A stretch of DNA of 50,522 nt, from assembly GCA_025965935.1 (NCBI GenBank), contig JAOPVZ010000106.1, forward strand, positions 1-50,522. The letters run 5' to 3'. Positions within the stretch are counted from its first letter, which is position 1. Each line of letters starts with the position of its first letter. The notes under the pieces are model-generated. The model did not search any database, was not told the DNA's origin, and saw only the letters and a program-made list of their open reading frames with translations. A program made the position numbers and the translations under genes. This DNA is from Frankiales bacterium. Its GTDB lineage: Bacteria; Actinomycetota; Actinomycetes; Mycobacteriales; SCTD01. Shown here in pieces: positions 10,701 through 42,416 of the stretch.

Positions 10701-11045
10701 ATGAGCCGCCGCTTCACCGACCCGGTCGAGGTGCACACCCGGGTGGAGGCCTCCGGGCCGGTGCCTGACCAGTTCCTGTGGCGCGGGCGGCTCTACGTCG
10801 TGCGCGAGGTGCTTGCGCGCTGGACCGAGTCGGGTTCGTGGTGGCGCGGCACGAGCATGTCCGCGGTCGTCACCGGGGACGAGGTCGCGACCACCACGCT
10901 GGCCGTCGACGACCGCGCGACGCAGTGGTGGCGGATCGAGGCCGACTCCGGGCGGCTGGCGGCGATGAGCGCAGGACCTGGCGTCTACGACCTGTGCTTC
11001 ACCGAGTCGACCGCGCAGTGGTCGCTGAAGCGGGTGATGGACTGA
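10701..11045 (+). CDS. DUF6504-family protein
   Basis: MSRRFTDPVEVHTRVEASGPVPDQFLWRGRLYVVREVLARWTESGSWW; family found near dnaE2/Y-polymerase genes in actinobacteria. Confidence 0.8.
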   Translation: MSRRFTDPVEVHTRVEASGPVPDQFLWRGRLYVVREVLARWTESGSWWRGTSMSAVVTGDEVATTTLAVDDRATQWWRIEADSGRLAAMSAGPGVYDLCFTESTAQWSLKRVMD

Positions 11046-11428
11046 TGATGCGGGGAACGGGGCGCACTCCCGACACGCTCCTGGGACTCGCCCACGAGGG
11101 CCTCCGCGAGGCCGCCGCGACCACCTCGCCGAGCCGGCGTTACGCCCTCGCCCACCTCGCCGCCCTGCGGGCAGCGGCCGCGGTGCTGTCCTGCCGGGCG
11201 CACAGCCGGGAGCGGTCCCGTCCGACCAGCGCGTGGGTGCTGCTCGCCCGGGTCGCGCCCGAGCTCAGCGAGTGGGCGCAGTTCTTCGCCGCGGGTGCCG
11301 AGAAGCGGGCGGTCGCCGAGGCCGGGATCGCCGGTGCGGTCACGCCGCGGGAGGCCGACGACCTGCTGCGCGACGCGCAGTCCTTCCTGCAGGTCATCGA
11401 GACCACGCTGCTCGCCCGAGCCGGCTGA
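11045..11428 (+). CDS. SAV_6107-family HEPN-domain protein
   Basis: MMRGTGRTPDTLLGLAHEGLREAAATTSPSRRYALAHLAALRAAAAVL; all-alpha protein in the typical position upstream of dinB. Confidence 0.75.
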   Translation: MMRGTGRTPDTLLGLAHEGLREAAATTSPSRRYALAHLAALRAAAAVLSCRAHSRERSRPTSAWVLLARVAPELSEWAQFFAAGAEKRAVAEAGIAGAVTPREADDLLRDAQSFLQVIETTLLARAG

Positions 11429-11437
11429 CATGCCCTC

Positions 11438-14400
11438 ATGACCGACCCGTTCGTCCACCTGCACGTTGCCAGCGGGTACTCGCTCAAGCACGGCGCCTCG
11501 CACCCGAAGCAGCTCGTCGAGCGGGCCGCTGAGCACGGCATGGACGCGCTGGCGCTGACCGATCGCGACGGCGCCTACGGGATCGTGAAGTTCGCGCAGG
11601 CGTGCGAGAGCTGGGGAGTGCGGCCGATCTTCGGCGTGGACCTGGCCATGGCGCCCGTGGCGCCAGTGATCCACGGAGAGTTGGCGCACTTTCTGAGGGG
11701 TCCAGAGCGAGGCAACTCTCCGCCGATCAAGAAGTCGATCAAGAACAGGACGGTGCCGGCGCGCGGTGGGGCGTTCCGGCTCGAGCTGCGGCGGGTGACC
11801 TTCCTCGCGCGGGACGGCAAGGGTTGGGCGCAGCTGTGCCGGCTCATCAGCGCGACCCACCTCGCGGGCGAGCGCGGGCAGCCGGTGAGCTCCCTCGACC
11901 TGGTCGCGGAGCACGCGAGCGGAGGCGGCATCGCCGTGCTGCTCGGGCCGCAGTCCGAGCTGGGCCGGGCGCTGGACCGCAGGAGGCCGGACGAGGCGGC
12001 CGCCCACCTGCGGACCTGGCGCGACGTCCTCGGCCGCGACGCCGTCGTCGTCGAGGTCGTGCACCACCGCGGCCCCGGCGACGCCGCGAGGGCCGCGCGC
12101 TTCCTCGGCTTCGCCCACGAGCAGCGGGCGACGGCGGTGCTGTCCAACGTCGTCCGGTACGCGGACCGGGCCGACGCCCCTACCGCTGACGTCCTCGACG
12201 CGTCGCGCCGGCTCGTCGCCCTGGACGCCCGGCACGTCGACCGCGCCAACGCCGAGGCCGCCCTGCTGTCCGGCAAGGAGATGGCCGACGTCGCCGAGGA
12301 AGTGGCGAGGTACGCCGGCCTCCGCGACGAGGGGCGCTCGCTGCTCGCCGAGACCCGCAAGCAGGCGGACCGGTGCGCCGTCGACCCTCGATCAGACCTC
12401 GGCATCGGCGAGGTGCACTTCCCCGAGCTGGAGGTGGCGGGGGAGGCGAGCGCGCTGCTGCGGGAGCGCTGCGAGGCCGGGCTCAACCGCCGCCAGATGC
12501 CGCGGGACACCAAGACCCTGCAGCGCCTCGACGAGGAGTTCGCCGTCATCGAGGGCCTCGGCTTCCCGTCGTACTTCCTCACCGTCGCCGACGTCGTCGA
12601 CCTCATCAAGGCCGCCGGCGTCCGGGTCGCCGCCCGCGGCAGCGGGGCGGGCAGCCTGGTCAACTACCTGCTCGGCATCAGTGACGTCGACCCGATCCGC
12701 TACGGCCTGCTCATGGAGCGGTTCCTGTCACCGCTGCGCAACCAGCTCCCGGACATCGACATCGACGTCGAGTCGGCACGTCGCACTGAGCTCTACGAGC
12801 TCATCCTCGCCCGGTACGGCGGTGAGCGCTGCACCTGCGTCTCGATGATGGACACGTACCGCGCGCGGCACGGCATCCGGGACGTCGGCGCTGCTCTCGG
12901 CCTGCCGCCCGGCGACGTGGACGCGCTGGCCAAGGCGTTCCCGCACATCCGCGCCAGCCAGGTGCGGCAGGCGATGAAGGACTTGCCCGAGCTGCGGTCC
13001 AGTGGTCTCAACACCTCGCGGGTCGACCTGGTGCTGCAGCTGGTCGAACGGCTCGACGGGCTGCCGCGCCACATCGCGCTGCACCCGTGCGGGGTGCTGC
13101 TCTCAGACCGCACGCTGCTCGACCGCACGCCGGTCGAGTCGAGCTGGCTGGGCTTCCCGATGAGCCAGTTCGACAAGGACGACGTGGAGGCGCTGGGGCT
13201 GCTCAAGCTCGACGTGCTCGGCATCCGGATGCAGTCGGCGATGGCCCACGCGATGGACGAGGTCGAGCGGGTCGAGGGCACCCGTCCCGACGTCGACTCC
13301 ATCAGCAGGGAGGACCTGCGCACCTTCCACCTCGTGCAGTCGACCAAGACCCTCGGCTGCTTCCAGATCGAGTCGCCCGGGCAGCGCGAGCTGATCGGCA
13401 AGTTCGCGCCGGAGACCTTCGAAGACCTCATCACCGACATCAGCCTGTTCCGCCCGGGGCCGGTGAAGAGCGACATGGTGCGGCCGTTCCTCGAGGCCCG
13501 GAACGGCTGGAAGGAAGCGCTCTACGTCCACGACGACCTGCGTGAGGCCCTGGAGCAGACCTACGGCGTCGTCGTCTTCCACGAGCAGGTCCTCATGATC
13601 GTCGCCAAGATGACCGACTGCAGCCTTGCCGAGGCCGACGAGGTCCGGCGGGCCCTCGGCAACGACGACGGCCAGGAGGAGGTGCGGGTCTGGTTCCGGC
13701 CCACCGCGCTCGGCCGCGGCTACTCGACGGAGGTCGTCGACGAGGTCTGGGACATCCTCAAGGCCTTCGGGTCCTTCGGCTTCTGCAAGGCCCATGCGGC
13801 GGCGTTCGCCCTCCCGACGTACCAGTCGACGTGGCTCAAGGCGCACCATCCCGCAGCGTTCCTCGCCGGGGTGCTGACCCACGACCCCGGCATGTACCCG
13901 AAGCGGCTCATCCTCGACGACGCCCGGCAGTTCGGCATCGCGATCCTGTCCCTGGACGTCAACGCGAGCCAGCCGGCGTACACGGTGGAGAAGGTCGGCT
14001 TCCTCGACGAGCCGCCGCCCGCAATCCTCGGGGCGCCACCGCGGTCGAGAGCGGACGATCTCGACCTGCCGGACGGGCGTGGGCACGGCATCCGGATCGG
14101 GCTGTCGGACGTGCGCGGCATCACCGAGGCGGAGATCGCCCGGATCGTCGCGGGGCGGCCGTTCGCGTCGCTGTCGGACTTCTGGCACCGGGCGGCGGTG
14201 TCGAGGCCGATCGTCGAGCGGCTCGTGGTGGCAGGCGGTTTCGACTCCCTGTACGGGCTCGGCTCCTCGATCCCCGGGAGGCGCAGGGGGCAGGTGACCC
14301 GGCGCGACCTGCTGCTGCAGGTGGCCGAGCTCGACCGCTGGAGCCGCTCGGTCCAGAGGGGCCAGCCGAAGAAGCGGAAGGCCGACGCACCAAGGGCTTT

Positions 14401-15196
14401 CGACCTCGACATCCCCCTTGACGACGTCAAGGGACGGCAGGCAAAGCAGTCCCAGAGGGCGACCGTCGTCGAGCCGGTCGACATGCAGCTCGCGCTCGAC
14501 CTCGGGGACGCGCCGGAGCAGACCGTGCCGAGCGGGCTGCCGGAGATGACGCAGGCCGAGCGCACCCGTGCCGAGCTCGACGTGCTCGGTCTCGACGTGA
14601 GCAGCCACGTGCTCGACGGCTACCGGCAGTTCTTCGCCGAGCTCGGCGTGACGCCCGCCAAGGACCTGCTCGGCTGCCGCAGCAACCAGGGCGTCCTCGT
14701 CGCCGGTGTGAAGGTCGCGACCCAGACCCCGCCGATCCGCTCCGGTCGCCGGGTCGTCTTCGTGACCCTCGACGACAGCACCGGTCCGGTCGACGCGACG
14801 TTCTTCGAACAGGCCCAGGTCGGCTACGCCAGCACCGTCTTCCACTCTTGGCTGCTCGTGATCAGAGGAGAGGTACGACGGACCGGCCCCCGTGGTCTGT
14901 CGCTGCTGGCACTGGGCGCCTGGGAGCTGCCGGTGCTGCACGCGGTGTGGAGCCACGGCGGGATGGACGCCGTGTGGGAGCACATGGAGCTGCCGGGAGT
15001 CGTCACCGAGCAGTCGGTGCACGGGGCCGCGGAGTCGCGGTCGACCCGGCCCGTGATGACCAGGCCTCCCGCATCGGCGCCGGTGCAGGTCTACCCGACC
15101 GGCTTCAAGCTGTCGGCGTACTCCGACATCAAGCCCGCGGGAACGGGCGTGACCCGCAAGCTCTGGCACGCCAGCCCGGGAAGCAGTGGGCGGTGA
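11438..15196 (+). CDS. dnaE2: error-prone DNA polymerase III alpha subunit (DnaE2)
   Basis: 1252 aa; PHP start FVHLHVASGYSLKHGASHPKQLV, RGSGAGSLVNYLLGISDVDPI, LPDIDIDVESARR, GFCKAHAAAFALPTYQSTWLKAHHPAAF. Confidence 0.95.
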   Translation: MTDPFVHLHVASGYSLKHGASHPKQLVERAAEHGMDALALTDRDGAYGIVKFAQACESWGVRPIFGVDLAMAPVAPVIHGELAHFLRGPERGNSPPIKKSIKNRTVPARGGAFRLELRRVTFLARDGKGWAQLCRLISATHLAGERGQPVSSLDLVAEHASGGGIAVLLGPQSELGRALDRRRPDEAAAHLRTWRDVLGRDAVVVEVVHHRGPGDAARAARFLGFAHEQRATAVLSNVVRYADRADAPTADVLDASRRLVALDARHVDRANAEAALLSGKEMADVAEEVARYAGLRDEGRSLLAETRKQADRCAVDPRSDLGIGEVHFPELEVAGEASALLRERCEAGLNRRQMPRDTKTLQRLDEEFAVIEGLGFPSYFLTVADVVDLIKAAGVRVAARGSGAGSLVNYLLGISDVDPIRYGLLMERFLSPLRNQLPDIDIDVESARRTELYELILARYGGERCTCVSMMDTYRARHGIRDVGAALGLPPGDVDALAKAFPHIRASQVRQAMKDLPELRSSGLNTSRVDLVLQLVERLDGLPRHIALHPCGVLLSDRTLLDRTPVESSWLGFPMSQFDKDDVEALGLLKLDVLGIRMQSAMAHAMDEVERVEGTRPDVDSISREDLRTFHLVQSTKTLGCFQIESPGQRELIGKFAPETFEDLITDISLFRPGPVKSDMVRPFLEARNGWKEALYVHDDLREALEQTYGVVVFHEQVLMIVAKMTDCSLAEADEVRRALGNDDGQEEVRVWFRPTALGRGYSTEVVDEVWDILKAFGSFGFCKAHAAAFALPTYQSTWLKAHHPAAFLAGVLTHDPGMYPKRLILDDARQFGIAILSLDVNASQPAYTVEKVGFLDEPPPAILGAPPRSRADDLDLPDGRGHGIRIGLSDVRGITEAEIARIVAGRPFASLSDFWHRAAVSRPIVERLVVAGGFDSLYGLGSSIPGRRRGQVTRRDLLLQVAELDRWSRSVQRGQPKKRKADAPRAFDLDIPLDDVKGRQAKQSQRATVVEPVDMQLALDLGDAPEQTVPSGLPEMTQAERTRAELDVLGLDVSSHVLDGYRQFFAELGVTPAKDLLGCRSNQGVLVAGVKVATQTPPIRSGRRVVFVTLDDSTGPVDATFFEQAQVGYASTVFHSWLLVIRGEVRRTGPRGLSLLALGAWELPVLHAVWSHGGMDAVWEHMELPGVVTEQSVHGAAESRSTRPVMTRPPASAPVQVYPTGFKLSAYSDIKPAGTGVTRKLWHASPGSSGR
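11667..11729. repeat. palindromic (REP/MITE-like) element embedded in frame in dnaE2
   Basis: TGATCCACGGAGAGTTG (11667-11683) and CAACTCTCCGCCGATCA (11713-11729): 17-bp arms with 2 mismatches, 29-nt centre containing TCTG...CAGA. Confidence 0.8.
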
Positions 15197-15211
15197 TATC
15201 CCGGCCGACCC

Positions 15212-15217
15212 TAGGCT
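15212..15217 (+). promoter_or_regulatory. candidate -10 (TAGGCT), 7 nt upstream of methyltransferase ATG
   Basis: TAGGCTggcggccATG. Confidence 0.45.
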
Positions 15218-15224
15218 GGCGGCC

Positions 15225-15962
15225 ATGGAGACGAGGCGCGGCCCGGCAGCGAACGTGCGCACCGCCGTCGTCTGGGAGGTCCTGTCGACGGTCCTCGCCA
15301 CGCCGGGCCAGGTGGTCGTCGACGCCGGCGGCGGCACCGGCGGCTTCGCCGTGCCACTGGCCGAGGCCGGTCACCGGGTCACCGTCGTCGACCCCAGCCC
15401 CGACAGCCTCGCAGCGCTGCAGCGGCGGGCGGCCGAGCGATCGCTCGACGTCGCCGCGCTGCAGGGCGACCTCGGTGACCTCGCCTCGCTCGTGCCGGCA
15501 GGCAGCGCCGACCTGGTGCTGTGCCACTCGGTGCTCGAGGTGGCCAGTGAGACCGCCGACCCTGCTGACCTGCTGGCTGCCATCGCCGATGTGCTCCGGC
15601 CCGGGGGCCGGCTCAGCCTGCTGGTCGCCAACCGCGACGCCGCCGTCCTCGCCCGCGCCCTGGCCGGCCGTCCCGACGAAGCGGCTCATGCCCTCACCGA
15701 CCCGGCCGGCCGCTGGGGGAGGGCGGACGGCATCGCCCGCCGCTGGACGCCCTCGGCGATCGCCGAGCTCGTGGCGGGGACCGGCCTCGTCGTGGAGCAG
15801 GTGCACGGCGTGCGCTGCGTCTCCGACCTGGTGCCCAGCGCGGTGCTCGACACCGAGCCCGGTGCCGCCGCGGCCCTGCTGGCGCTCGAGCGGCGGCTGT
15901 CGGACCAGGCGCCGTTCCGCGACCTCGCGACCCAGGTCCACCTCCTCGCACGCAAGGGCTAG
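15225..15962 (+). CDS. SAM-dependent class I methyltransferase
   Basis: VVVDAGGGTGGFAVPLAEAGHRVTVVDPSPDSLAALQRRA; start chosen at ATG 15225 (ORF open to 15186). Confidence 0.88.
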   Translation: METRRGPAANVRTAVVWEVLSTVLATPGQVVVDAGGGTGGFAVPLAEAGHRVTVVDPSPDSLAALQRRAAERSLDVAALQGDLGDLASLVPAGSADLVLCHSVLEVASETADPADLLAAIADVLRPGGRLSLLVANRDAAVLARALAGRPDEAAHALTDPAGRWGRADGIARRWTPSAIAELVAGTGLVVEQVHGVRCVSDLVPSAVLDTEPGAAAALLALERRLSDQAPFRDLATQVHLLARKG

Positions 15963-42369: not shown

Positions 42370-42416
42370 ACACGACAAGGGCCGCTTCCCGATCGGGGAA
42401 GCGGCCCTCGTCGTGT
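42370..42416. terminator. strong hairpin between convergent genes
   Basis: ACACGACAAGGGCCGCTTCCC-GATCGGGGAAGCGGCCCTCGTCGTGT, about 21-bp stem with one mismatch. Confidence 0.85.

Follow-up and report, generated by a model that had tools for sequence, protein, structure and literature searches.

A palindrome within the dnaE2 reading frame

Can a mobile palindrome be carried inside the coding sequence of a polymerase? The question is raised by a 63-bp palindromic element at 11667..11729 (+ strand) of the window, by which we mean the whole 50,522-nt stretch of DNA analysed. The element lies in dnaE2 (11438..15196, + strand), which encodes an error-prone DNA polymerase III alpha of 1252 aa, within the part of the gene specifying the PHP domain (residues 7-209). 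The original prediction, made from this sequence alone, read it as a REP/MITE-type mobile palindrome tolerated as a coding insert.

The anatomy given in that prediction is present in the sequence. A left 17-bp arm TGATCCACGGAGAGTTG (11667..11683, + strand), whose motif is conserved in 44 copies of the genome of the window (G000; 3.07 Mb, about 85 % complete) and its sister genome (G004), is mirrored by a right 17-bp arm CAACTCTCCGCCGATCA (11713..11729, + strand) with 2 mismatches relative to the left. Between them lies a 29-nt centre (11684..11712, + strand) that includes TCTG (11692-11695) and CAGA (11703-11706) and differs from copy to copy. The direct repeat GATCAAGAA-GTC-GATCAAGAA (11725..11745, + strand) overlaps the right end of the element in part and may have arisen by a linker duplication unconnected with the insertion. 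The element is also less GC-rich than its surroundings, as had been noted (G+C 0.60, against 0.71 for the dnaE2 ORF and 0.72 for the window).

It is the sole inverted repeat reported in 11550-11850, and the window holds a single gapped palindrome of the form GGAGAGTTG-N5..30-CAACTCTCC, whereas 100 shuffles gave none. The RNA folding energy of the element is unremarkable (z = -1.25); the element stands out from chance by its palindrome pattern and chiefly by the repeat family described below, rather than by folding energy. Elsewhere in the window, a strong hairpin between convergent genes (42370-42416) is unrelated to the element and is probably an ordinary terminator.

The dnaE2 frame is uninterrupted across the element, since the length of the element is divisible by three and no stop codon falls in this frame. 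The 21 codon-equivalents correspond to dnaE2 codons 77-97, and the product contains VIHGELAHFLRGPERGNSPPIKKSIK in addition to the PHP, NTPase, finger, HHH and OB domains found in polymerase III alpha. Orthologues within the genus are 77-85 % identical. The insert is absent from 13/13 DnaE2 orthologues with a readable linker (12 genomes, genus and family), in which the same place varies in both length and sequence; all genomes compared are draft MAG-like assemblies, and the dnaE2 insert rests on one assembly. Measured from FGVDLA through GGAF, this stretch spans 26-59 aa in the relatives and 49 aa in the window DnaE2, or 28 aa once the 21 residues of the insert are subtracted, in agreement with the proposed location in a variable linker; the matching stretch in solved DnaE1 chains is about 10 residues. 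The element thus lengthens a PHP-domain loop of widely variable length by 21 residues, and the polymerase probably works.

A dispersed and lineage-specific repeat family

G000 contains 14 full copies of the element, the window copy included, with a best E value of 2e-12 among the 13 others. The aligned G000 copies yield the consensus TGATCSACGGAGAGTTG..29 nt..CAACTCTCCGTSGATCA (family A), in which the arms are conserved, the centre is variable and the total length is near-constant at 62-63 bp. A covariance model of the family matched about 30-31 places in G004, about 35 or more in G006, a congener carrying another subfamily, and few in G003 and G002, and it returned no family A places in the congeners G001 and G005. 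Matches were obtained in 15 of the 24 genomes of the GTDB family. Outside this family there were almost none when 250 genomes from the order and 395 from the class were searched, with three single weak matches in the class-wide search; one order-wide match, in G234, lies close to a helicase C-terminus and may be a coincidence. Searches of plasmid and phage collections and of Rfam gave no match to the element.

Versions of the arms are genome-specific (CCGG|TGATCCACGGAACCGGCGCC in G006; TGATCAACG.. and others in other genera). The G006 copies (L108-L127, L183-L192) are flanked by C-rich sequence on the left and G-rich sequence on the right (CCCCTCCCCGG|element|CCGGGGAGGGG), such that the hairpin could extend outward. 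This flank pairing is not copy-specific, the C-rich/G-rich flanks being a trait of the G006 subfamily.

The possibility that the palindrome arose by chance, or is native coding sequence of a fast-evolving linker, can appeal to the variability of the linker in all relatives; however, it is refuted by the 13 further copies in the same genome and by the zero matches returned by both the reversed control pattern and the shuffles, and we regard it as practically negligible. An element present in all orthologues and without other copies is not what the comparison returned. Rather, the dispersed copies in G000 and its relatives and the absence of the insert from the orthologues lend support to a REP/MITE-type palindrome tolerated as a coding insert. 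In the broad sense of that term, we found many copies that are dispersed, share conserved inverted ends and lack coding capacity, as well as filled and empty sites in relatives (the dnaE2 orthologues and locus L010).

Copies lie mostly near gene ends

Genes in G000, G004 and G006 were called with a home-made codon-usage caller that had been trained on the window, and individual placements may therefore be in error. Of 79 copies, 76 (~96 %) are intergenic; L109 and L110, counted separately here, probably represent a single copy present on two contigs that overlap. By neighbourhood, 28 copies are flanked by convergent genes, 36 by co-directional genes and 7 by divergent genes, the last in G006 without exception; the other 5 are at the edge of a contig and have a neighbour on one side only. 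The 3′ ends of neighbouring genes are a median of 14 nt away, as against 87 nt for 5′ ends, and in 23 instances the terminal TGA of the element is the stop codon of the neighbouring gene. Only three copies lie within ORFs, and only the window copy is inside a conserved domain; the two in G006 (L127 and L186) are outside any domain, one occupying a C-terminal tail and the other being close to a start that is itself uncertain.

At L010, the element lies between two consecutive genes in both G000 and G004. The site is empty in G003, G005, G002 and G006, where the start of the second gene overlaps the stop codon of the first. The copies at L009/L093 and L012/L174 lie next to stretches in which G000 and G004 are unlike (e.g. 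about 1.2 kb beside L009). Elements may serve as borders of deletions or rearrangements, as at dnaE2.

The marked preference for gene 3′ ends and convergent pairs, with few copies between divergent genes, would suit a functional RNA hairpin at gene ends (a bidirectional terminator or a stabiliser of mRNA ends), of which the dnaE2 copy would be a stray or attenuating example. The consensus stem of 15 bp points the same way. The pattern of variation within the arms, however, does not: in both genome sets, pairing at the variable outer-arm positions is no more frequent than expected of independent columns, position 6 is mismatched in 17/44 copies, and no U-run follows the element. Interior positions 19, 21 and 24 do exceed the pairing expectation in G000/G004, and some structural role may exist there. 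Overall, we consider an RNA hairpin function unlikely.

Arms appear to be held to a motif

Where the outer arms vary, the variants on the left and on the right occur independently of each other (44 copies in G000/G004; 35 copies in G006), and compensatory stem changes were not detected in the outer arms of either set. Because the variants of the two sides are independent, pairing itself is not what the outer arms keep. Across nine sites that G000 and G004 have in common, arm identity is 0.88, compared with 0.53 for the interior and 0.72 for third codon positions of the neighbouring genes, while the adjoining flanks are nearly random. Randomly matched copies give almost the same values (arms 0.86, interior 0.53). 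Purifying selection alone as the cause of arm identity at shared sites is weakened by this result, copies at the same site being no more alike than random ones; for the same reason, vertical inheritance and reinsertion are indistinguishable at these sites, which counts against the explanation we favour below. The arms appear to be held to the motif, by selection or by renewed insertion, instead of drifting as inert DNA would. That the arms and not the interior are so held, with no covariation in the outer arms, fits recognition of the arms as DNA, most likely by a putative protein that could be a transposase or a host factor.

The copies might also be DNA-protein binding sites maintained by the host (e.g. 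nucleoid or chromosome-organising sites) composed of two inverted motifs at a fixed spacing, in which case the dnaE2 copy would be accidental. Both arms draw independently from one position-specific motif, the length is near-constant, and the arms at the nine shared sites stand out from interior and flanks, all of which accord with binding sites. On the other hand, the equal similarity of arms in random copies is expected of a mobile family as well, a copy number ranging from 0 to about 35 among congeners is odd for an essential site, and the motif itself differs between congeners. We therefore view host-maintained binding sites as a possible but doubtful alternative to a mobile family.

The dispersal, the per-genome subfamilies and the empty site indicate copying, as judged from sequence comparison, and to this extent the predicted mobility holds. 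The machinery implied by the word 'mobile' did not emerge, as no transposase was found. RAYT (Y1) transposase genes were absent from 7/7 genus genomes (75-92 % complete) in a search that was positive in controls such as E. coli. Flanking direct repeats were not in excess across 60 copies, giving no sign of a target-site duplication. Lone arms of a longer parent element were lacking in G000 and G004, both incomplete assemblies, save for one match with 1 mismatch.

A probable scar in the sister genome

In the window, dnaE2 lies between genes for a SAV_6107-like HEPN protein (10778..11428, + strand) and a methyltransferase (15186..15962, + strand), and the order HEPN - dnaE2 - methyltransferase - Pol IV is kept in G005, G002, G008 and G010. 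The G004 locus lacks dnaE2. Instead, one element copy in the same orientation joins the two flanking genes: the HEPN gene ends directly in the copy, which supplies its stop codon, and the methyltransferase gene directly follows. Of all copies, this one has the interior closest to that of the window copy (score 36, next 26), with 25/30 identical positions in the centre and 28/34 in the arms; unlike at the intergenic shared sites, the arms are not better conserved here. For comparison, interior identity between random copy pairs has a mean of 0.53 (sd 0.07). The right junction shows CGA microhomology, and the left may retain about 12 bp of dnaE2.

Since the copy found between the dnaE2-flanking genes of G004 has the same interior, the insertion into dnaE2 is probably older than the split between G000 and G004, with the gene later lost in G004. 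The G004 copy might instead be an independent 3′-end insertion that followed the loss of dnaE2, in which case the window insertion may postdate the species split. Copies at 3′ ends are indeed common, this one gives the HEPN gene its stop codon, and a shared left flank of 12 bp is weak evidence of common origin. Against this stand the best-matching interior, far above that of random pairs, and the shared orientation, and we judge an independent insertion to be improbable.

Our preferred explanation, which we hold with good confidence, is that the element belongs to a lineage-specific, REP/MITE-like family of palindromes of about 63 bp, and that the dnaE2 copy stems from the common ancestor of G000 and G004 and persists in G004 as a scar. 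Copies would normally settle just downstream of genes, new ones arising by transposition-like copying in which the arms are presumably recognised as DNA by a putative transposase or host factor. One copy would have landed in dnaE2 in that ancestor, where it reads through as 21 residues in a DnaE2 that is predicted to be functional; flanking deletions would then have removed dnaE2 from G004 and left the element in place. The account draws on the dispersed copies, the orthologues without the insert, the open frame, the variable linker, the empty site of another copy and the scar. It would place the dnaE2 insertion before a species split, with a scar following gene loss. G004 encodes another DnaE-like protein (C39:63797-64906; L035, L044), 33-49 % identical to that of the window, besides DnaE1.

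Relation to known palindromic repeats

REP/REPIN sequences associated with RAYT (Y1) are short palindromes located outside genes, mainly near gene 3′ ends, and fall into genome-specific sequence classes. Family A resembles them in its short palindromes near gene 3′ ends and its genome-specific classes but differs in that no Y1_Tnp gene accompanies it in the 7 genus genomes and one copy sits inside an ORF; on present evidence, it is not a RAYT-type REP. The bacterial MITEs Correia/NEMIS, ERIC, RUP and YPAL are non-coding inverted-repeat elements of roughly 100-200 bp, mostly intergenic and sometimes fused in frame (PMC2229807). Family A shares the inverted repeats, the mostly intergenic placement and the occasional in-frame position with ORFs, yet is shorter and without target-site duplication, and no parent sharing its ends was seen in the incomplete assemblies of G000 and G004.

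The Rickettsia palindromic elements (RPEs) are short dispersed palindromes of 105-150 bp that occur in intergenic regions and in frame in conserved protein genes, with several families per genome; nearly half lie within ORFs, and target-site duplication is not established (PMC2229807, PMC10969869). Dispersal of short palindromes, intergenic and in-frame positions and several families per genome are common to RPEs and family A, whereas RPEs belong to Rickettsiales and family A is actinobacterial, 62-63 bp long and ~96 % intergenic. Family A resembles the RPEs in its behaviour but is not assigned to them, the two being set apart by host, length and intergenic bias as described. No description of family A was found in the open-licence literature, which omits most subscription journals.

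In-frame palindromes in ctaA and two further families

The dnaE2 insert is not a single oddity, as judged from the sequences of ctaA (heme A synthase), which also has in-frame palindromes. In G002, a family A palindrome (L057 1501-1563) contributes DPRNANGSVEGSRNRSGSVDH in frame to a protein loop, making ctaA the second conserved protein gene, with dnaE2, to show this RPE-like feature; G005 (L206) has an apparently degenerate version. The same loop in G000 and G003 contains a palindrome of another family, termed B (TGAAGGGATACCGCGC.. and GAATGGACACTGCGC..), and there is no palindrome in this loop in G004, G006, G001 and other genera. Hit by two palindrome families in different species, the CtaA loop provides a natural test of the positions at which a protein tolerates random inserts of about 20 residues.

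Protein-coding palindromic repeats are hereby documented in an actinobacterial lineage, whereas reviews cover Rickettsia, enterobacteria, Yersinia and Neisseria. Tentatively, families A (TGATCSACGG..), B (TGAAGGGATAC..) and C (TGATCAACAGG..) might together represent an Actinomycetota counterpart of the Rickettsia protein-coding palindromes, with repeated in-frame entry, provision of host stop codons and a putative non-RAYT factor that binds or mobilises the arms.

Family B copies (TGAAGGGATACYGCGC.. / GAATGGACACTGCGC..) lie at L207 1920-1976 (G000:C157), L240 7347-7404 (G000:C15) and L211 1901-1957 (G003). Their arms differ between the G000 and G003 copies by both-sided changes, and the TGA of the second G000 copy (L240) is the stop codon of a gene. 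This copy and several family C copies in G000 come from a sample of about 300 kb. Family C (TGATCAACAGG..CCTGTTGATCA) is represented at L240 153-216, L242 18482-18545, L246 3389-3452 and L229 6190-6256 in G000 and at L052 483-546 in G004; the three copies whose context was examined sit 19-45 nt past gene ends.
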